From contig JBBEBQ010000019.1 of NCBI GenBank assembly GCA_040882285.1, forward strand, positions 1 through 64,000: a stretch of 64,000 bases of DNA, in the 5' to 3' direction. Numbering within the stretch: position 1 is the first letter of the stretch; the number at the start of each line of letters is the position of its first letter. Both the position numbers and the translations under genes were made by a program. The notes under the pieces are model-generated. The model had not been told where the DNA came from. It searched no databases and worked only from the letters and a program-made list of their open reading frames with translations. This stretch comes from Gemmatimonadaceae bacterium (GTDB lineage Bacteria > Gemmatimonadota > Gemmatimonadetes > Gemmatimonadales > Gemmatimonadaceae). Shown here one piece after another: positions 1-10,701 of this stretch.

Positions 1-100
1 TTTCGAGCTGGCGGCAGTAGCTTAACTCACTGTCCACTAAACCCGGCGCAGCTCACTCACGCGGGTCACTTCGCGGATTGTAGCAAGTCGCGTAGAGAAC

Positions 101-435: not shown

Positions 436-574
436 GTCTAACCGAGCGTTGGTGCCGATGGCGCTATCCGGGAAGCGACCGCGGGCGGCCGGAATGAGCG
501 CACCGATCTGACTGGCGCGCCCGCCCGCGGACGCCTCTATTCGAAGCGCCGCAGCACAACGCCGTTCGTTAGGC
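436..574. other. attC recombination site (integron cassette, site 1)
   Basis: Outer boxes GTCTAAC (436-442) and GTTAGGC (568-574) match the integron consensus RYYYAAC / GTTRRRY. Inner boxes GCGTTGGTGC (446-455) and GCACAACGC (554-562) are complementary except for one unpaired G, the extrahelical base expected in attC. Inside, GGCGCT (460-465) pairs with AGCGCC (545-550), and CCGCGGGCGG (479-488) pairs perfectly with CCGCCCGCGG (521-530), so the whole 139 bp folds into one long arm. Length is at the upper end of the usual attC range. An ORF ends 21 bases upstream and another starts 13 bases downstream, as in cassette arrays. Confidence 0.8.
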
Positions 575-586
575 ACTTCAACAACT

Positions 587-1213
587 ATGACTGCTCTGAT
601 GGAATTCAACGAACGGCTACAGCTCTTCAACTCCAAAGTCGAGTTGTTGTCACAGCGATCGTTCTTCGGCCATCTGACGTCTCAGCCGACGAATGTTCGC
701 CTTAAGTGGGACCGGGATACAGGGTGGGAGTCGTCGTTTGCGGGCCCGGCGGACGAGTCAATTGAAGCTTCCGTTCTTACCATCCGGCAGTTCATGCAAG
801 ACAACGACCCGATCTCGATCAGGAACGTGGCGAACTCATACGTAACGAGTGGAGTTGACCAATCCACCATTGACGAGTACCAGAAAGTGAGGGGGTGGCT
901 CAACGACTATCTGGATCGCGAATCGAACCTTGGCGTGGCCGAAGGGAAACAGCTGACGAACCGCGAGATCCTTTTCACCTTTGTCTACGGCGGCCTAGCT
1001 CATTCATCTGAGCCCTACCATTCGAGATATCGCGGCTTAATGGGAAGTCCATTCGCGAGTCTCTTGAAAGTCTTGTTCGTTGAGGTGCTGGGCAAGTTCA
1101 TGTCTACCTTGAGGATGCTCGCCACGGTGAACCGTCGTGTGATCAATCCCGAGGGAACCGGTGCTCATTCACCACCGGCGGACGATGCGAGCGCTATCGC
1201 GCCGAGTGCCTGA
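587..1213 (+). CDS. hypothetical protein, gene-cassette ORF
   Basis: A 208-residue soluble protein of unknown function. The ATG at 587 lies 13 bases after the GTTAGGC box of attC site 1, and the TGA stop (1211-1213) sits inside the left box of a second attC-like site (1208-1318), so the gene fills exactly one integron-style cassette. The sequence is largely helical, with a moderately hydrophobic segment near residues 160-180 and a proline/serine/alanine-rich tail. I see no signal peptide, catalytic motif or nucleotide-binding loop. Phage-defence and toxin-antitoxin roles are common among such cassettes, but nothing in this sequence assigns one. Reading through both flanking sites makes a real gene likely; function unknown. 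Confidence 0.65.
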   Translation: MTALMEFNERLQLFNSKVELLSQRSFFGHLTSQPTNVRLKWDRDTGWESSFAGPADESIEASVLTIRQFMQDNDPISIRNVANSYVTSGVDQSTIDEYQKVRGWLNDYLDRESNLGVAEGKQLTNREILFTFVYGGLAHSSEPYHSRYRGLMGSPFASLLKVLFVEVLGKFMSTLRMLATVNRRVINPEGTGAHSPPADDASAIAPSA

Positions 1214-1318
1214 CACCGCGTTGCTGCTGCCGGCACGTGCCTTTGGAAGCAGCTGGCTCACTTCGCTCGCCTGCGGCATCTTTCGCGATGCGCCCCGGCA
1301 GAACGCGGATGGATAGGC
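1208..1318. other. degenerate attC-like site (site 2)
   Basis: Same geometry as site 1 (3 bases between left boxes, 5 between right boxes). Left box GCCTGAC (1208-1214), right box GATAGGC (1312-1318): each differs from consensus at one base of the key AAC/GTT triplets. Inner boxes GCGTTGCTGC and GCAGAACGC pair with one unpaired G at the same place as in site 1; flanking bases extend the pairing (CCGCGTT 1216-1222 with AACGCGG 1302-1308, CTGCCGG 1227-1233 with CCGGCAG 1295-1301). The changed triplets suggest a site that is inactive or decaying. Confidence 0.5.
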
Positions 1319-1348: not shown

Positions 1349-1885
1349 ATGGCGGTCGACCGGCAGTACGGACTCATAGAGCGGCTGGACAGGCACCTTG
1401 ACGAGACGCTTACGCGCTTCGACGAAGCACGTACGCCCATCTGGGAAAGCCAAGCTGACGTTGGGAGGACTTTAGTAACCCTTGCTTCAGGGTCACTCGT
1501 AATAAGTATCACGTGGGTGCAGTTTTTGGTTACCAAGGTGCCACACCCCGAATGGCGACTGCTTCTGATCACATCATGGAGTCTGTTCGCATTAACAGTC
1601 ATTCTCGCAGCAGCTCGCCAAGGTTGGTCTGGACGCGCGCGATCATATCGTCTTGGGTTTGAGCGCCGTCGCGGGGACCTGCGTGCAGTGATAGCGCGCA
1701 TTGACGCAGCCGGTGGAGGCAGCGACGAAATAGATGCCGCTATCGCGACAGTCGTGGAGGAGGCCAATAGGTATCCGGCAAGCGCAGTGCGCGTTTACAA
1801 CGGTATCTCGCACGTGATGTTTTGGTCCTTCGCGATTGGGTTGATCTCGCTGTTAGGGTTTGCCTTGAGGAATCTGCCTTTTTGA
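1349..1885 (+). CDS. small membrane protein, unknown function
   Basis: A 178-residue protein with two adjacent hydrophobic segments (about residues 45-65 and 70-88), a basic middle region rich in arginine, and a third hydrophobic segment near the C-terminus (about 155-175). The N-terminal 40 residues are charged and probably helical, giving an inner-membrane protein with cytoplasmic domains. The layout loosely recalls SLATT-type or other small defence-associated membrane proteins, but I cannot place it in a family. It starts 31 bases after the right box of attC-like site 2 and would be the next cassette; I found no attC on its downstream side, where 168 bases separate it from the restriction gene transcribed toward it. 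Confidence 0.6.
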   Translation: MAVDRQYGLIERLDRHLDETLTRFDEARTPIWESQADVGRTLVTLASGSLVISITWVQFLVTKVPHPEWRLLLITSWSLFALTVILAAARQGWSGRARSYRLGFERRRGDLRAVIARIDAAGGGSDEIDAAIATVVEEANRYPASAVRVYNGISHVMFWSFAIGLISLLGFALRNLPF

Positions 1886-2053: not shown

Positions 2054-4660
2054 CTACAGCGTTCCGGAAGGGGTCTCGTCCGGGTAGTTCTTGGCCAAGG
2101 CCCCTTCGTAGAGAGCGCGCGCTTCGAGCGCTTCCTCGATCGCCTTCCGAACATCCACACGCGTCAGGTCGAGCACCCGCAGTTTCCCCTTGACCTCGGC
2201 GACCGCCTCAACTCGCCTGAATGCATCGGGGTGCGTCGCGGCGTAACGGGCTAATCCCTGCAGCTTGGCCAATGCATCAGCCCAAGCGACGCTATGCGGA
2301 TCCACGATGTCCACCACGATCCTGCCCTTCGAGTCCTCGGCGAAGAACAGGAAGTCGGGCCGAAGAGTCTTCGTGTCGTCACCATCCATGTAGGCCACGC
2401 CCAGTGAATCCTGCGTGGGCCGACCGGGATTCCGGTACCAGAACCGGAAGCCGTCGCGCTTCATCTCAGCACGGAGCACGGCCCGCTCCCACTCGTTCAG
2501 CTCGGCCGGATAGGCTCCCTGGCCGTCGCAGAGCACATGGTTCTCGTATGCCTGCAGCTTCGTTTCGCTACCATCCTTCTCGCGCGCGGCGGTCAACTCC
2601 CATCGCGACACGGGTCGCGCGAGATCAACGTCCTGCGGCTCGCGGCTGAGCGCTCTGATCTCGCGGTAAGCCTCCTGCCGGTCGTCGGGCAGCTCCTTGA
2701 TTTGCTCCCGGTACTTCCTCAGCCATTCCTCCGCGAGCTTCGTGGCCTCGGCGTCGATGTACACGTCCAGGTTCTGCATCAGTCCCAGCGCGCCGATGTC
2801 CTCGCGCGCCTCGATCAACGCATCATCGAAGTCGTACTCTTTCTCGGGTTTCTGCCGCGCGCGGTGCTCCGTGTAGGTGCGGGCGATATCCGGGCTGATG
2901 ATGCGCGCGGTGCGGCGGTACGCATCGTTGATGACGACTGCATCCGCCTCCGTCTGGAATGACCGGAACTCCGTTACCTGCGCCTTGACGTGGAGAACAA
3001 TCGTTCGGCCCTCGACAGTCTTCACCGATTCTCGTTTGGACTTGAACTCGTAGGGATTCTTTGCGATGAATGCATCGAGCGCCTTGTGCATCGCCGCGTG
3101 CGCTTTCTGCCCCGCCTTCGGCAACAAGGCATCCATCGCCAGCTCGTGCGCGAGCGCGGTCAGGCGCTTCGGCGGCCTCGCGCCGTGCTGAGGGCGCGTC
3201 TGTGACGGTAGGGAAGTGAACACGTCCCAGATCACGGCGGTCACCGCCGGGTTGGGCTTCATTTCGACCGGATTGATAAGGATGCGGCCAAGCGGTGGTA
3301 CGTCTCCGCCTCCCTGCATCAACGCATCCACGACGTCCTTGACTGCCTTCTCGTCGAAGAACGGAAGCAGGCAGTCCACGGAGTTGAGACGGTCGTTGCC
3401 GGGAATGCGGCGGGCGAGCGGCGTGCGTACCATGCGCCCAAGTAACTGGGTGATGTGTGTGGGGTCCTTTGCGGGCCGGAACGAGACCATCACCTCGGCG
3501 CGCGGGCAGTCCCAGCCCGTGCTGATGGCGTCCTTGGCGAGGAGCACGCGCACCCAGGTGGCGTCCTGCACGCGCTCGGGGGAGATGTAGGGGACGGTGT
3601 GCCTGCCGAAAGTCTGCGTGGTGTGCTCACCGAACACGTGCGCAATGCAATCCTCGGGAAGGTCGGACCACCGCTGAAAGATCGTGTCGAGCCACTGCCC
3701 GACCTCATTGGGGTTCGGCGTATTCGGCACCTGGAGGACCATTAGCGGCACGACACTCTCGCCGCTTTCCTGCTCTTTGCCGTACTTCGCCCACTCGGTG
3801 GCGGATTCCCGGAGCTTGTCCGTGGCGAGCCGCACCAGAACGGTATCGAACTGGCCTTCCTCGTCGGGGATGTCCACAACGATGGTGTCCTTCAGCAGCC
3901 CCGAGTCCTGGACCCGGGCGGCGTCCACCTGCACTCCCGGAAGCGTCGTGCGCCCCATTGCGCCTTCCATCGCGCGGTTGAACCGCTCGACCGTAGCGGA
4001 AATGCCGAGCACGACGGGGACCCCCGGCACGCCCTTCTCGCCGTTGATGAGCCGCTTCACGAGGGTGGATTTCTCGATTTCCGCGGCCCGACTGGGCTTG
4101 CCCATACCGCGGTGCGCCTCGTCCAGCACGAGGTAGAGCGTGAGCGACGGGTCCTCGATGGTGTTGCGGATGGTGTCCCAGATCGTGTGCGCGCGCATAT
4201 CGGCGCGCATCTGGGGGAAGCCATGCTGGTCCTCCTCACTCTGATCGAAGCCGCGAACGAGCCGACTGTTCTTGCCGAGCTTCTGCGTGTTGAGGAAGTA
4301 GATCTTCCCGGGCTCGAATCGTTGGCGATGAAAGCTGTTGTCAACCACCACCATATCCGTGCTGCGGAGCCGGTCGGCGGACGCCATCAGGCGAAAGCGC
4401 GTCTGTTCGTTCAGGGATGGGTCGTCGCTGAACCAGATCACGACAGCACCGGGGTCGGCGTCGAAGTCATAGTCATCGTCGCCGTGGAACAGCGCCTCGA
4501 ATACCGCCGCCGCCATGACCGTCTTGCCCGCGCCGGTGGGCGCGGTGAGCGAGAAGGCATGTCGTTCGCTTTCCTCGCGCCAGCGCTTCCGCGCCTTACG
4601 AACGCTGGCGAGGATCTCGCGGACCGCATCGTCCTGATAGTCCTTGAGGGTGACCTTCAT
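2054..4660 (-). CDS. type III restriction enzyme-like helicase (Res subunit)
   Basis: An 868-residue superfamily 2 helicase, the expected size for a type III Res subunit. Walker A PTGAGKT is at residues 41-47, the DEAH box at 180-183, followed by an ISATVERF motif, the GWDCPRAEVMVSFR segment and the arginine-bearing QLLGRMVRTPLARR of motif VI. The C-terminal domain holds RPDFLFF then, about ten residues later, VVDIVDPH, where a PD-(D/E)XK nuclease would have its acid-X-lysine; no lysine is seen at that point, so nuclease activity is uncertain. The gene overlaps the methylase gene by four bases (ATGA), so they are translated as a pair. Together they should translocate on and cut DNA lacking the Mod methylation. 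A helicase-only defence role is an alternative. Confidence 0.85.
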   Translation of the reverse strand: MKVTLKDYQDDAVREILASVRKARKRWREESERHAFSLTAPTGAGKTVMAAAVFEALFHGDDDYDFDADPGAVVIWFSDDPSLNEQTRFRLMASADRLRSTDMVVVDNSFHRQRFEPGKIYFLNTQKLGKNSRLVRGFDQSEEDQHGFPQMRADMRAHTIWDTIRNTIEDPSLTLYLVLDEAHRGMGKPSRAAEIEKSTLVKRLINGEKGVPGVPVVLGISATVERFNRAMEGAMGRTTLPGVQVDAARVQDSGLLKDTIVVDIPDEEGQFDTVLVRLATDKLRESATEWAKYGKEQESGESVVPLMVLQVPNTPNPNEVGQWLDTIFQRWSDLPEDCIAHVFGEHTTQTFGRHTVPYISPERVQDATWVRVLLAKDAISTGWDCPRAEVMVSFRPAKDPTHITQLLGRMVRTPLARRIPGNDRLNSVDCLLPFFDEKAVKDVVDALMQGGGDVPPLGRILINPVEMKPNPAVTAVIWDVFTSLPSQTRPQHGARPPKRLTALAHELAMDALLPKAGQKAHAAMHKALDAFIAKNPYEFKSKRESVKTVEGRTIVLHVKAQVTEFRSFQTEADAVVINDAYRRTARIISPDIARTYTEHRARQKPEKEYDFDDALIEAREDIGALGLMQNLDVYIDAEATKLAEEWLRKYREQIKELPDDRQEAYREIRALSREPQDVDLARPVSRWELTAAREKDGSETKLQAYENHVLCDGQGAYPAELNEWERAVLRAEMKRDGFRFWYRNPGRPTQDSLGVAYMDGDDTKTLRPDFLFFAEDSKGRIVVDIVDPHSVAWADALAKLQGLARYAATHPDAFRRVEAVAEVKGKLRVLDLTRVDVRKAIEEALEARALYEGALAKNYPDETPSGTL

Positions 4661-6783
4661 CCTTCGCTCCCGTTAGCGAAGGCGAAATTCGTCAGGTAGG
4701 ACTCGTACAGGCGAACCGATTCCACACCCTCTGGCAGTCGTCGCGCGAGCGCCTGGAAGCGGCGCTCGTCGTCAGTGACGATGTAGGCGATGCGCAGATC
4801 CTTGCTCTTGCGGACCGCCTTAAGAAACGGCGTCGCCTCGTCGAGCTCCGTAAGCAGCCCGTACGTGTCCACCACTTTCCAGCCGGCGGTAGGAATCTTC
4901 TCGATGCGCCGCCCTCGGCTGCCCGCGCGCATCCAGAGCAGTGGTGCGATGCGGGCGAAGGCCACGTGGTGGCTGACCGCAACCGGCGTCTCGTAGGTGA
5001 GTGTGAAGAACTCAGCGTTCTCCTCGAAGCCATCGGACATCGGGAATTCATCCATGAATTTGTAGGCGCCATCGAGGAGTTCGCCTTCTGGGGTCGTTCC
5101 ACTAATGGCAGCGGCGATCCGCGGCTTCGTGATATGGTCGCAGATGCCCATCCGCTCCCAATCTGGATCGCCCGGGCGAAGCCCCTTGTTTCGCAAGCCG
5201 TCGTGCTCAACGGCGGCAACTTCGTTGTTCGTTACGGAGATGCACTGACGCCGACCACCATCCTGCTGGTTCAATCGCAGGATCGCATGAGCGGTGGTGC
5301 CGGACCCGGCAAAGAAGTCGAGTGCTACTGCGTTTTGCCTTTCGCCGACAAAGAAGCGAAGCGTGTCTTCGACTGCATAAAGAGACTTGGGGAATGGGAA
5401 TGATCGCTTCGGGAGGAGGTCAGCAAGCACCAGAGTGCCGCCCGTCTCCGCGTTGTGTGACGGTCTGACCCAGGTGGAGGTTGGGGTCTTGAGCTTGTCC
5501 GCCACATATTCTGCGATCACGCTATTGTCGGGTGCTCGGCCGACGACTGCCGCTCGACCCGACTCAATGTCCTCAATCTTCCCGGAGGTCATGTACGAGA
5601 TCTCCCACTCTTGTGGCTTGGTGGGCGTGTGACGACCAACGCGCACGAAGCCTTTCGCATGGATGACGCGCAATGCGGGCGCAGTCAGCCCCCAGTTCAT
5701 CTCGACTCCATTCTCGCGAATAGGGAAAACCGCGGTGCAGCCTTTTCGAGTCGGAGCGTCTGATCGGGGAACATGGTGAGGCAACGCATCGCCGACGTGT
5801 ACGATGTGGCCCTCTCGGCTGACATAAATCGGATAGAACTGCGCAGTCCCCCCCTTGGGCTTGCCCCGCGCTGACGCGGCATCGCTGCGTCGCAATGTTC
5901 TCCAAGGAACGCGAGTGCCGCCGCCAAAATCGGGGTCGACCTCCTTGCCCACGGTCGCAGTCCCGAGCATAACTATGAACAGGTACTCATCCGACCGAGC
6001 GAATCGTCCCGGTCGATGTCGCCCGCGTGGGTTTACAACGGTCGTTACCATCTCGATCACGCTTCCCAGGAACACCTGTTCGAGCAATAGGCCAAGTCTC
6101 AAGTACTCCTTTTCGTCGATTGTAACGATGAGTACTGAGTTTGACGGACTCAGTAATTCGCGAGCGAGAAGCAGTCGCCGTTCCATGAAGGCCAACCACT
6201 TACTGTGGCGATACAGATCGTCTTCCTCGACGTAATCATTGTTGTATTTCCAATCCCTAGCTCCACTGTTGTAAGGCGGATCGATGTAGATCGCGTCCAC
6301 CGTGCCGCGGTGCGACCACGTCAGTGCCTTGAGCGCGTGATAGTTCTCCGCATTGATCACTGTGTGATACGGCTTGTCGCCGCCGCGCTCCACCTTTCCC
6401 GTGCTCACCAGACCGGGATAGATGGTGTCCTTGAACTCGGCGACGACGACGAGGTCTTCGACGGGCACTGACTGCGTTTCCGGCGTCGCCGCGTCGAGTA
6501 GCACCAGGTCGGCGATTTTTCGTTTGCTGGCGGTGGCGATCTTCACTACGTGCCACAGACGCTGGTCACCCTTCTTCGTTGACCCGCGCTCGGGCAACAC
6601 TCTGACCTTGTCGCCCTTCCGGATAGGACGCAGCGGCAGCTCGACCGCCTCCGGCCGATGGCGCTCGAAATTCAACCCGAACGGCAGGCGCGACGACAGC
6701 GCCTTGAACTCCCGTTCGAGGTCCGCGCCCACCTGCGGGTCCTTGGCTTTTGCCTGGGCAATCAGGTCAGTCAGTCGAGACAC
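4657..6783 (-). CDS. type III-like DNA adenine methyltransferase (Mod subunit)
   Basis: A 708-residue DNA methyltransferase. DPPY (motif IV, residues 168-171, with YIDPPYNSG around it) comes before FAGSGTT (motif I, SAM binding, residues 491-497); this order marks the beta class, typical of type III Mod and N6-adenine methylation. The 300 residues between them contain the likely target-recognition domain. The first gene of a two-gene minus-strand operon with the Res helicase, it sets which site is recognised and protects host DNA. The flanks and the gene itself are lower in GC than the core genes to the right, consistent with transfer. An ATG start at 6783 is used; the next 200 bases upstream hold no clear gene. 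Confidence 0.88.
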   Translation of the reverse strand: MSRLTDLIAQAKAKDPQVGADLEREFKALSSRLPFGLNFERHRPEAVELPLRPIRKGDKVRVLPERGSTKKGDQRLWHVVKIATASKRKIADLVLLDAATPETQSVPVEDLVVVAEFKDTIYPGLVSTGKVERGGDKPYHTVINAENYHALKALTWSHRGTVDAIYIDPPYNSGARDWKYNNDYVEEDDLYRHSKWLAFMERRLLLARELLSPSNSVLIVTIDEKEYLRLGLLLEQVFLGSVIEMVTTVVNPRGRHRPGRFARSDEYLFIVMLGTATVGKEVDPDFGGGTRVPWRTLRRSDAASARGKPKGGTAQFYPIYVSREGHIVHVGDALPHHVPRSDAPTRKGCTAVFPIRENGVEMNWGLTAPALRVIHAKGFVRVGRHTPTKPQEWEISYMTSGKIEDIESGRAAVVGRAPDNSVIAEYVADKLKTPTSTWVRPSHNAETGGTLVLADLLPKRSFPFPKSLYAVEDTLRFFVGERQNAVALDFFAGSGTTAHAILRLNQQDGGRRQCISVTNNEVAAVEHDGLRNKGLRPGDPDWERMGICDHITKPRIAAAISGTTPEGELLDGAYKFMDEFPMSDGFEENAEFFTLTYETPVAVSHHVAFARIAPLLWMRAGSRGRRIEKIPTAGWKVVDTYGLLTELDEATPFLKAVRKSKDLRIAYIVTDDERRFQALARRLPEGVESVRLYESYLTNFAFANGSEG

Positions 6784-6990
6784 GTTCGCTCATTTGCTCC
6801 GGGAAGACGGACGCCGGCGATGCCGAGCACTGCCCGTCGCCAAAGAAACTAGTCGTTCTCGAAGAGCGCCACCGTCTCCGGCGCGGCAGGGAGGTTGACC
6901 GCAGGCTGCCACGCGGCAACTTCACACCGCCTGTCGGGTATTGATGTTGCGATTCCGGAAGCGATCGTAAGGTTCCAGCAGGGAGGCGCA

Positions 6991-7167
6991 ATGACGGAAC
7001 ACTGGACTCCGACCCTGTCAGAAGAGGGGTCAAAAGAAGTCTTTGCAGAGCAGCAGTCGCGTGAGGCGGAGACGCCGCAGCGGCGGGATATGCTCGAGCG
7101 CGTGCGAGCGGCATTTCGCGCGCTTGGTCGCCAGGATACTGAAAGGCGGGTCAGCACGGTCCGCTGA
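6991..7167 (+). CDS. small hypothetical ORF
   Basis: A 58-residue frame beginning ATG at 6991, chosen because GGGAGG lies 5-10 bases before it, the best ribosome binding site in the surrounding 400 bases. The product is acidic then basic and probably helical (glutamate/glutamine/arginine-rich, ending in a RVRAAFRALGRQ-like helix). No family recognised. It lies between the divergent methylase gene and the toxin-antitoxin pair and may be a small regulator, a remnant, or chance. Confidence 0.3.
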   Translation: MTEHWTPTLSEEGSKEVFAEQQSREAETPQRRDMLERVRAAFRALGRQDTERRVSTVR

Positions 7168-7244
7168 TCCGATTTCCACTCAAGTGCGTTATGGCGACAG
7201 GGCCAGCGGTTGCATATTCCGAGAACCTCCTCCAGTATCCAGTC

Positions 7245-7463
7245 ATGATTTCGCGCGCCATCGCCGTCGATGAACTGACTGCCGAAGAGCGACTCGAGCT
7301 CATCGGGCGGCTCTGGGATAGCCTGGACCCTGCTGCCGCCGCGCCCGTGACCGACGCGCTTGCCGCCGAGCTTGATCGCCGCGAGGCCGATGCCGACGCG
7401 ACCCCCGACGAAGGGGATGAGTGGCCTGAGGTGAAGGCCGCACTGAGCAAGAAGCTCTGGTAA
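7245..7463 (+). CDS. addiction-module antitoxin, RelB/PF09720-like
   Basis: A 72-residue protein whose core ELTAEERLELIGRLWDSL is the signature of the 'addiction module component' antitoxin family, followed by a short linker and an acidic WPEVKAAL tail that normally wraps the toxin. The frame is open upstream to an ATG at 7191, but family members begin just before the ELTAEER helix, so ATG 7245 is preferred. The stop TAA is directly abutted by the GTG of the toxin gene, giving translational coupling. Such antitoxins bind and neutralise the toxin and autorepress the operon. Confidence 0.85.
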   Translation: MISRAIAVDELTAEERLELIGRLWDSLDPAAAAPVTDALAAELDRREADADATPDEGDEWPEVKAALSKKLW

Positions 7464-7763
7464 GTGCGGACGTTGCGCGTCCGTCGCGTCGCGCGGCGCG
7501 AAATCGAGGCGGCGTTCGAATGGTACCTTGCACGGTCTCCGACGGCCGCGCGGCGATTCCTGGACGAAGTTGACCACGCGATCACGACGCTCCACGCCAA
7601 CCCTGAACGCCACGCCGTTGTTCGCGGCCGACTCCGCCGCGTGTTGCTGCGGCAATTTCCGTACGCCGTGTATTACAAGGTCTACCCCGCGACGATCAGC
7701 GTTGTCGGCGTGATTCACGGGCATCGCCACCCAGAGACCTGGCTGAAGCGTGCTGCGCCATAA
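7464..7763 (+). CDS. ParE/RelE-family toxin
   Basis: A 99-residue basic protein of the ParE/RelE fold: an N-terminal strand-helix (RVARREIEAAFEWYL), the RRFLDEVDHAI helix, then strands with RRVLLRQFPYAVYYKV and the C-terminal VVGVIHGHRHPETW that is characteristic of these toxins. The GTG start touches the antitoxin stop. The stop codon TAA (7761-7763) lies in the left box of an attC-like site, so the pair looks like an integron-cassette toxin-antitoxin module, a common cassette cargo that stabilises arrays. Target (gyrase or ribosome-bound mRNA) cannot be told from sequence alone. Confidence 0.88.
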   Translation: MRTLRVRRVARREIEAAFEWYLARSPTAARRFLDEVDHAITTLHANPERHAVVRGRLRRVLLRQFPYAVYYKVYPATISVVGVIHGHRHPETWLKRAAP

Positions 7764-7868
7764 CCAGCAATTGCAGCAGACGGCGCTTTCTGTCGGTAGC
7801 GGCTGGCGGTCTTCGCCCGCCAGCCGCATCATATGTGATGCGCCGCAGCTGAATTGCGGTCGTTATGC
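7758..7868. other. attC-like site following the toxin gene (site 3)
   Basis: Left box CCATAAC (7758-7764) and right box GTTATGC (7862-7868) keep the AAC and GTT triplets but deviate from RYYYAAC/GTTRRRY elsewhere. Inner boxes GCAATTGCAGC (7767-7777) and GCTGAATTGC (7848-7857) pair with a single unpaired G, the attC hallmark. The tip contains GCGGCTGGCGG facing CCGCCAGCCGC (about 7799-7826), an almost uninterrupted stem that could also act as a transcription terminator hairpin. Total 111 bp. Confidence 0.55.
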
Positions 7869-8067
7869 CGAGCCAGCCTTCGACCAACATCTCAGACACG
7901 CGGAGAATCCGATAAAGACGCTTGCCTCTGTTATGGCAATGTTCGCGTGCCTCGTCCGCATAACCGAGCTCGACCAGCGGAGTCAGGTGCTCACGCTGGA
8001 CGGCGGCTTCCGCGTGTATCGGCGAAACCGCAGGCAGTCGGTTCCAACGATCATGCCCGGCCGCTAG
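7869..8067 (+). pseudogene. PIN-domain (VapC-like) toxin remnant
   Basis: From 7918 to the TAG at 8065-8067 the frame encodes about 49 residues that match the end of a PIN ribonuclease: FACLVRITEL, VLTLDGGFRVYRR and VPTIMP correspond to the usual ADACLVR..TEL, VLTLDSDFRVYR and IP..MP blocks. The N-terminal two-thirds is missing, and the acidic residues expected in 'ADAC' and 'LDSDF' are replaced (FAC, LDGGF), so even the surviving active-site half is dead. It begins right after attC-like site 3 and ends five bases before the next gene. Confidence 0.65.
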
Positions 8068-8072
8068 CTGCG

Positions 8073-9263
8073 ATGCGACCGCTTCCCGTACCGCGTTGTC
8101 TAGTTGCTGTTCTCGGTGTGACCATGTTCGCGGCGTGCGAAAGGGCACCGGACGATCGCGCCGACAGCCCCTCTTCTCGGCTCTCCCTTGGCTTCGCGGT
8201 GGATACATCCGCTGCGGCCATTTCTCTTTGGGCGGTAGATCCAGCGCGTGCCGCGCTTCCAGCAGTGGTGCGAGCATGGGACGCGTATCTCACTGTCCGC
8301 GGGGACTCGACAAAGCGGCTCTCGTTCTGGTCCACCGCGGATCGCCAGCGTACACCCGACCCGGATCTCGTCCTGTACTCCGAGGGCTACGTATCACAAA
8401 GCAATGCGATACTCGTTGAAGCACTCCCTCTCGTAGCTGGGGATTCCTCGAAATGGGTATTGCGCACGGTCTACGTTGGCGGGGGCACAGCGGCGCGTCC
8501 GGGACTTCTGGCCATGGAACGCATCCATGTCGTGCAGGAGGAAGGACGGTGGGTGTTGGCGCATCCGAGCTCAGCGGAAACCGAGGGCTGGCGCCGTGAG
8601 CGAGTGGGGTTGATCGAGTATGTCGTCCACCCCGTGCTCCGCTTTGACGCGACACGGGCACTGGAAACCGCGCAATGGGTCGAAGATACGGCGCAGCGGT
8701 TCGGCGTCTCCGATGTCCGCCCGATCACGTATTATCTCGTGCCCGACCTGCCTGCCGCGTTTCGCGTCATGGGCCTGGACTGGGGCCTCACCAGCGATCG
8801 AGTGGGAGGGAAAGCCAACGCACGTGCTCGGGTGGTTTTCGCCGCGGATCCGCGATTTGGCGAAGCCTATCTACACGAACTGGCGCATGTGCTCTTGCAC
8901 CCGATCACGGGAGGCGCGTCAGCGTTCGTACAAGAGGGAATTGCGCAATGGCTGGGTGGTGCGCGGGGCAAGGCATTGCCGGGCGTGTTGCACGATCTGG
9001 CCGGCTACCTCGATCGGCGGCCAACCATCGGGTTACGCGCGATCCTCACCGACGACGGCTCAAGCGCGGCAGCCAGTGCTCGTTTCCCGGCAGCGGCGGC
9101 CGTATTCGAGCTCGTCCACCGACGCGGAGGCGACACCGCAATACGAAACTTCCTCACAGCCATGGGTAAGGATGAGCCAACGCTCGACAGCCTTGCGCGC
9201 GCTCTCGGGATGGTGCCGGCGGAACTCGAATCGGAATGGCGGGCGCTCGTGCGCTCCTATTAG
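8073..9263 (+). CDS. lipoprotein with a gluzincin (peptidase MA-like) metalloprotease domain
   Basis: A 396-residue exported protein. The N-terminus has a hydrophobic stretch ending in MFAAC, a lipobox that predicts a lipid-anchored periplasmic protein. The C-terminal half carries HELAHVLLH (HExxH zinc motif) and, about 20 residues on, VQEGIAQWLGG, where the glutamate would be the third zinc ligand, the arrangement of gluzincin/peptidase-MA-like enzymes. The first half has no recognised domain. Start ATG 8073 was chosen because it sits immediately before the signal peptide; the frame is open upstream through the PIN remnant. It ends four bases inside the convergent XRE gene. Substrate unknown; it is the only large intact non-toxin gene in this belt. 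Confidence 0.75.
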   Translation: MRPLPVPRCLVAVLGVTMFAACERAPDDRADSPSSRLSLGFAVDTSAAAISLWAVDPARAALPAVVRAWDAYLTVRGDSTKRLSFWSTADRQRTPDPDLVLYSEGYVSQSNAILVEALPLVAGDSSKWVLRTVYVGGGTAARPGLLAMERIHVVQEEGRWVLAHPSSAETEGWRRERVGLIEYVVHPVLRFDATRALETAQWVEDTAQRFGVSDVRPITYYLVPDLPAAFRVMGLDWGLTSDRVGGKANARARVVFAADPRFGEAYLHELAHVLLHPITGGASAFVQEGIAQWLGGARGKALPGVLHDLAGYLDRRPTIGLRAILTDDGSSAAASARFPAAAAVFELVHRRGGDTAIRNFLTAMGKDEPTLDSLARALGMVPAELESEWRALVRSY

Positions 9264-9580
9264 GCGGCAGCGCGACGCAAGGTGCGGCCGATGTCTCCGG
9301 GGCTGGCGCCGAGCGCGAACAACCCCTTCAGTAGCAGATCAACCGATACGGATCGGTCCGCGGCTTCCATCTTCGCCACTCGCGATCGGCTCGAGTTGAG
9401 GCGGCGCGCGAGCTGCTGTTGGGTAAGCCCTAACGCTGCGCGCTTCCGACGCAGCGCCTGGCTGAGTGCGACCTTGGTTTCTACGAGCGCGGCCTCTTCA
9501 TGGCTGATGCCGAGGAATTCCGCCGCGGTGCCGGCCCGCCAGCCTGCCGCCTCCAGTCGAGTTCTTTTTGCTTGCTTCAT
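9260..9580 (-). CDS. XRE-family helix-turn-helix antitoxin-like protein
   Basis: A 106-residue DNA-binding protein. After an N-terminal KRTRLEAAGWRAGTAAEFLG segment and a helix, the HTH region RRKRAALGLTQQQLARRL followed by SSRSRVAKMEA is a classic XRE/HTH_37 unit. This arrangement is typical of antitoxins partnered with RelE/HigB-like toxins encoded just upstream, but no toxin ORF is seen in the 147 bases on that side. It therefore looks like an orphan antitoxin or a small repressor. ATG 9580 was chosen; the frame runs on upstream without family similarity. Its stop overlaps the end of the convergent metalloprotease gene by four bases. Confidence 0.75.
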   Translation of the reverse strand: MKQAKRTRLEAAGWRAGTAAEFLGISHEEAALVETKVALSQALRRKRAALGLTQQQLARRLNSSRSRVAKMEAADRSVSVDLLLKGLFALGASPGDIGRTLRRAAA

Positions 9581-10434: not shown

Positions 10435-10701
10435 GTGAAAGCCGTTGTCGTCGGTGGCGGGCCGGCCGGCCTGTACACGGCCCTGCTCCTCAAACAGGCC
10501 GACCCCCCGGACGGCTGGCCGCGCCCGTCCGGGTACAGCGGCGGCGTGACGGTCTCCGGCAGGCTCGTGGTTCTCGCCGGACAGGTCGGCTGGAACCCGC
10601 TCACTGCCGAGTTCGAGACGGACCAGCTCACCGCGCAGGTACGGCAGGCGCTGATGAACATCGTCACGCTGCTCGCGGAAGCCGCAGTAGTGCCGGAGTG
10701 A
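10435..10701 (+). pseudogene. deletion scar: FAD-monooxygenase start fused to truncated RidA
   Basis: An 88-codon frame made of two unrelated pieces. Residues 1-23 ([20 protein letters not shown]) are the start of an FAD-dependent aromatic-CoA monooxygenase, complete with the GxGxxG dinucleotide loop. From about residue 25, [15 protein letters not shown] and VVLAGQVGW are the beginning of a RidA (YjgF) protein, which then stops after [10 protein letters not shown], about half the usual RidA length. Salicylyl-CoA 5-hydroxylase/2-aminobenzoyl-CoA monooxygenase, RidA, thiolase and amidohydrolase genes are known to cluster for anthranilate degradation, so this looks like a deletion that removed most of such an operon. 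No clear ribosome binding site. Its stop overlaps the thiolase start. Confidence 0.65.

Follow-up and report, generated by a model that had tools for sequence, protein, structure and literature searches.

A probable remnant of a chromosomal integron at a contig edge of a Gemmatimonadaceae bacterium

Introduction

Does the left edge of a contig from a Gemmatimonadaceae bacterium hold part of an integron, and if so, can that integron still move genes? The stretch of DNA analysed here (the window, 64,000 bases) corresponds to bases 1-64000 of contig C19 (87,373 bases) in a genome of 2.89 Mb that is assembled in 27 contigs and is about 97% complete. A sequence-only reading had described two attC sites close to the left end, flanking small open reading frames (ORFs), and had proposed either part of a cassette array or a cluster of attC sites lacking an integrase. 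In integrons the integrase IntI works on the folded bottom strand of attC and cuts at G^TT of the R' box. As described below, the left 7.9 kb of the contig very probably represents a CALIN (cluster of attC sites lacking an integrase), the decaying piece of a sedentary chromosomal integron whose integrase has been lost.

Results

Three attC sites in the window

We built a covariance model (R1) from five attC-like sites outside the window, two on contig C14 and one each on C20, on C7 and at C19:71993. When these five are aligned with the two window sites described earlier, the two helices pair in 89.6% of cells, compared with 77.8% in shuffles and 20-42% when slid. Searching 80 integron-integrase-carrying contigs of many phyla with R1 yielded 40 sites at E < 0.01, from which a second model (R2) was made that contains no window sequence and in which helix covariation is seen. 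Applied to large arrays of three relatives, R2 gives 24 to 37 attC sites per 17-20 kb, all on one strand. In 94 of the 125 intervals of these arrays that strand also carries the longest ORF, so that the strand given by R2 is the cassette strand. The attC background is low, since several relatives of 2.9-5 Mb give no match at E 0.01. Using the consensus RYYYAAC for the outer box R'' and GTTRRRY for R', we describe the three sites that R1 finds in the window, all on the + strand; R2 finds the same three and nothing else at E < 0.05 in the 64 kb.

436..574, + strand: attC 1, canonical; R'' GTCTAAC (436-442) and R' GTTAGGC (568-574), both exact
1208..1318, + strand: attC 2, decayed; R'' GCCTGAC and R' GATAGGC, inner boxes intact
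7757..7868, + strand: attC 3; AAC/GTT triplets intact, directly behind an antitoxin/ParE pair

The assignment of 436-574 as attC is well supported. Besides its exact outer boxes it is matched by both window-free models (R1, 31.4 bits, E 2.2e-6; R2, 35.0 bits, E 4.9e-6), so that the absence of a covariance-model hit, named beforehand as a refutation, did not occur. Its bottom strand folds with -44 kcal/mol (z -4.15), and none of 200 shuffles is as good. The site at 1208-1318 indeed has the same geometry with changed triplets, as had been claimed: the spacers of 3 and 5 nt, the GCGTT[G] inner box with one extra base and 11 inner pairs agree with attC 1, while both key triplets are lost (GAC/GAT instead of AAC/GTT). 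Folding alone does not distinguish attC 2, as 47 of 200 shuffles are as good (z -0.77), but both models do, if with a weaker score than for attC 1 (R1, 25.0 bits, E 1.5e-4; R2, 19.8 bits, E 0.015). The two sites are 634 bases apart.

Both sites seen at the left edge are thus real, but the third, attC 3, had been missed. It scores 32.4 bits with R1 (E 1.2e-6) and 33.0 bits with R2 (E 1.4e-5), and its outer boxes CCATAAC/GTTATGC (7758-7868) fall short of the full consensus. At the DNA level attC 2 and attC 3 resemble sites of an array on contig C7 (81% identity over 63 nt and 71% over 98 nt, respectively), while attC 1 has no such match; the likeness of the two to this array is what one would expect if all derived from one sedentary integron. 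Aligned to the model columns, each of the three sites has one unpaired G on the left arm of the top strand. An extrahelical G had been noted before, and this is correct for the top strand; on the bottom strand, the one that folds, the base is a C. The stretches 436-574, 1208-1318 and 7757-7868 are confirmed as attC sites; recombination by an IntI integrase is predicted for the first and the third. An Rfam search of the window at gathering cut-offs matched 0 families.

Genes among the attC sites

The genes that accompany the sites, and the repeat at which the contig begins, are the following.

1..55, no strand: end of a multi-copy repeat; interrupts the first cassette and forms the contig end
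62..415, + strand: remnant of a cassette gene, 5'-truncated (ORF 101-415), with C-terminal AriAB likeness
587..1213, + strand: cassette gene of 208 residues between attC 1 and attC 2
1349..1885, + strand: probable cassette gene of 178 residues, starting 31 bases after attC 2
7191..7463, + strand: antitoxin (addiction module component); Pfam Unstab_antitox, E 2.4e-11; TIGR02574
7464..7763, + strand: ParE-type toxin; Pfam ParE_toxin, E 7e-10

Base 1 of the window is base 1 of the contig, and attC 1 stands 436 bases from this end. The proposed continuation of the array to the left would lie beyond it, where the contig stops in a repeat. The repeat at 1-55 has identical copies (100%) at C24:1-55, again a contig start, and at C14:15-55, and a diverged copy (91%) at C6:9281-9326. 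Because it recurs at contig ends, it is probably the terminus of an insertion sequence; a DNA search to identify this element matched nothing informative. The repeat end with which the window begins appears, on C14, to have been the target of an insertion sequence (15-1340) that has the ends AGAGGTGGCCT and duplicated CTAA.

The ORF 101-415 had been said to abut attC 1. The gene does end at 415, but its frame is open back to base 62, where it is truncated by the repeat. Its ~100 residues match only the C-terminal end of AriAB of the defence system PARIS (PADLOC, E 8e-11, profile positions 456-555 of 570), the remainder of that protein being absent; there was no Pfam family above cut-off and no NCBIfam family, and a solved-structure search with the truncated ORF gave 0 matches. 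PARIS (AriAB) combines the ATPase AriA with the TOPRIM nuclease AriB.

The earlier statement that the function of the ORFs is unknown is correct for those of 208 and 178 residues, neither of which matches a family in profile searches (Pfam, PADLOC, NCBIfam). Searches with the 208-residue protein detected no homologue among 394 other genomes of the phylum, no match in phages and no close homologue in a collection of genome contigs. One distant relative (29% over 150 aa) is encoded on a Bradyrhizobium plasmid, near multiubiquitin/ThiF and VPA1262-family genes. The 178-residue ORF has no plasmid homologue, and no attC is recognisable behind it. Hydrophobic stretches suggest that its product may be a membrane protein, and a low-confidence model predicts it to be all-helical. 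Single-sequence structure prediction gave a mean pLDDT of 41 for the 208-residue and 63 for the 178-residue protein, too poor for use. Both proteins are candidates for new defence functions.

The position of the gene ends relative to the R'' boxes is cassette-like: the TGA stop of the 208-residue ORF lies inside R'' of attC 2 and the TAA stop of the toxin gene inside R'' of attC 3, and the third gene (62-415) ends 20 bases ahead of attC 1. With filters off, the covariance models detect no attC between 1319 and 7756. For these 6.4 kb between attC 2 and attC 3, cassette status of the contents is only partly proven.

A type III restriction-modification operon within the cluster

Much of this interval is occupied by an operon on the strand opposite to the attC array.

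2054..4660, - strand: type III restriction enzyme (Res); Pfam ResIII, E 2.5e-13
4657..6783, - strand: type III DNA methyltransferase (Mod); PADLOC MTase_III, E 5e-285

We considered the operon (2054-6783) as one cassette and rejected this, as no attC is found at either boundary with filters off. A second copy (81%) lies at C7:77338-80692 within the second attC array, and there are more copies in G003, a genome of the same genus. In G003 only 80 bases separate one operon from the counterpart of window position 9285; it stands beside the same HTH gene, without the 2.4 kb (window 6881-9284) that comprise the toxin-antitoxin pair, attC 3 and a 395-residue ORF. Either the genus had the type III operon before the toxin-antitoxin pair was inserted, or G003 has lost this insertion. 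Another copy in G003 (its contig C120) follows three attC sites and has the same orientation relative to them. At about 126-133 of contig C126 of G003, GGTTAGGC, an R'-like box, is found just ahead of the type III operon boundary; no attC arm is recognisable before GGTTAGGC.

The presence of the operon among attC sites at two loci here and after three attC sites in G003 suggests that the inverted operon might itself be an integron-associated mobile unit, although we consider this rather improbable. If true, a ~5 kb defence operon would have entered cassette arrays more than once, and not by the route that ordinary single-gene cassettes take.

Integrases and attC sites elsewhere in the genome

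The proposed cluster of attC sites lacking an integrase is supported on this contig: we find no integron-integrase match anywhere on C19, together with three same-strand attC sites. Four IntI matches are present in the genome (on C14, C5, C20 and C8) and none is full length; they start at model positions 87-158 and thus have no intact N-terminal part. The match on C14 is in two pieces with residues 45-92 missing and the one on C8 contains a stop. On C14 and C20 the integrase is followed, past its 3' end and in the same strand, by attC sites. R1 and R2 together find about 12 attC sites beyond the window, on C7, C8, C14 and C20 and at C19:71993, with single sites at C19:71993 and C7:71215.

Three of these regions may be described briefly. 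An integron remnant on C14 (local 3487-6315 of C14:1-20000, - strand) consists of the broken intI and, behind its 3' end and all on one strand, a nitrilase cassette, an attC, a cation-efflux cassette and a further attC. A larger decaying attC cluster on C7 (local 716-18225 of C7:70500-90499, - strand) contains Gabija (GajA/GajB), an HNH protein, a PD-Lambda-2 component, several unknown cassettes and the second type III restriction-modification copy; C7 also encodes a DUF4145 protein that matches PD-T7-4 weakly. The lone attC on C19 (local 7993-9013 of C19:64001-84000, - strand) stands directly behind an alpha/beta-hydrolase-like gene, beside a transposase-like ORF; in an empty-site comparison its immediate flanks were not conserved in the genus.

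Among the relatives, G001 of the same genus has a full-length integrase (model 1-315, 423 bits). At E 1e-40 neither G002 nor G003 shows an integrase match, but both have kept attC sites. Several relatives still have full-length integrases, one of them together with about 75 attC sites.

Further along the window (10435-10701), the start of an FAD-binding/OYE protein and the end of a RidA-like protein are joined in one small ORF. Between these two parts G002 and G003 carry a gene cluster with ORFs for a 774-aa FAD/OYE protein, an SDR, an enoyl-CoA hydratase, an acyl-CoA dehydrogenase and an AMP-ligase-like protein; thus about 7 kb have been deleted here, probably also in G001.

Decay of the attC outer boxes

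The outer AAC/GTT pair is not intact in register in 6 of the 15 sites of this genome, compared with 1 of about 128 in the arrays of three relatives that were picked for having large arrays (Fisher p 3e-6, indicative only, as loci were chosen and sites within an array are related). The six damaged sites are 1208-1318, four on C7 and one on C8. We counted attC 3 as intact, with both AAC and GTT present; it is non-strict in the scripted list for the sole reason that the match to the model begins one base too early. The R'' box of attC 2 may once have read GCCTAAC; a change from this to GCCTGAC would have turned a TAA stop into TGA, so that the gene end would have been kept while the recombination box was lost.

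Discussion

The data are best explained by the following sequence of events. A working integrase would once have captured cassettes head to tail, with one attC behind each gene. It would then have been truncated or lost in this lineage. With the recombination boxes no longer under selection, AAC/GTT would have disappeared from sites such as 1208-1318; the inner boxes and the stop codon of the gene would have survived this decay. The remaining genes would now stay as fixed accessory genes, and we propose that those retained are mostly of the anti-phage or addiction type. The genes had previously been read as recently mobile. This agrees with the absence of the 208-residue ORF from the 394 other genomes, but the triplets of attC 2 are lost and the integrases truncated, and therefore the array now looks fixed.

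A complete and working integron, of which the window would hold the distal part with the integrase and attI beyond the contig edge or unassembled, seems very unlikely. The contig does end at base 1 within a repeat, G001 of the same genus has a full-length integrase, the triplets of attC 1 and attC 3 are intact, and a full-length intI may be merely unassembled in a genome of 27 contigs and about 97% completeness. The genome, however, yields four integrase remnants and 0 full-length copies, and the decay of attC 2 is shared by further sites (6/15 damaged). Far less credible still are chance attC-like palindromes, such as terminators or interspersed repeats: the fold of 1208-1318 alone is unremarkable, yet in 64 kb both window-free models give three sites and no others at E < 0.05, each of them on the + strand behind + strand genes, and several relatives of 2.9-5 Mb give no match at E 0.01.

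The most serious alternative, which we nevertheless regard as unlikely, is off-target insertion of single cassettes at attG-like chromosomal sites, with the three attC sites as separate events. It could account for the G003 locus, where the type III operon and the same HTH gene occur without the 2.4 kb holding the toxin-antitoxin cassette and attC 3, and for the single attC sites at C19:71993 and C7:71215. With the 395-aa ORF, however, the difference from G003 is larger than one cassette, and a precise G^WT junction was not found. Moreover, attC 1 and attC 2 are properly spaced neighbours and attC sequences of the window match the multi-site array on C7. A decaying fragment of one sedentary integron thus remains the preferred reading. 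The case documents an integron dying in a little-studied lineage. Together with the relatives that still have full-length integrases, it could show how quickly attC sites erode once the integrase is gone and which cassettes are retained.

Gemmatimonadota are among the phyla with integrons, and three origins of CALINs have been described, off-target insertion, loss of intI and rearrangement (PMC8618304). IntegronFinder defines a CALIN as two or more attC sites without an integrase, and CALINs are seen as degraded integrons (PMC9024848). Like these, the present locus has two or more equally oriented attC sites, with cassette ORFs in between and no integrase on the contig (PMC9024848). In contrast to them, one of the close attC pair lacks AAC/GTT, the third attC is 6.4 kb away and the left side is unassembled. 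A complete integron, i.e. intI with adjacent attI and an array, is not present on C19, which starts 436 bases left of attC 1.

In Xanthomonas, integrases have been lost repeatedly and leftover arrays with some defence cassettes remain; these sedentary chromosomal integrons resemble the present case in an ancestral integron, lineage-specific integrase loss, arrays at several loci and poorly characterised cassettes that include some defence genes (PMC12444791). Here, by contrast, another lineage is concerned, integrase remnants occur at four loci and attC outer boxes are visibly lost.

Integron arrays with antiphage defence cassettes have reportedly been described by Darracq (2025, Science), Getz (2025, Nat Microbiol) and Kieffer (2025, Science), as cited in PMC12444791. 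Common to these and our locus are defence and toxin-antitoxin genes between attC sites; what differs is the inverted 5 kb type III restriction-modification operon here and Gabija on C7, neither of which we claim as a single cassette. What is unusual about the locus is that an inverted type III operon recurs among attC sites; the sequences reveal no mechanism for this. The locus itself departs in nothing from the known kind of CALIN: it is ordinary in kind and a genuine relic.
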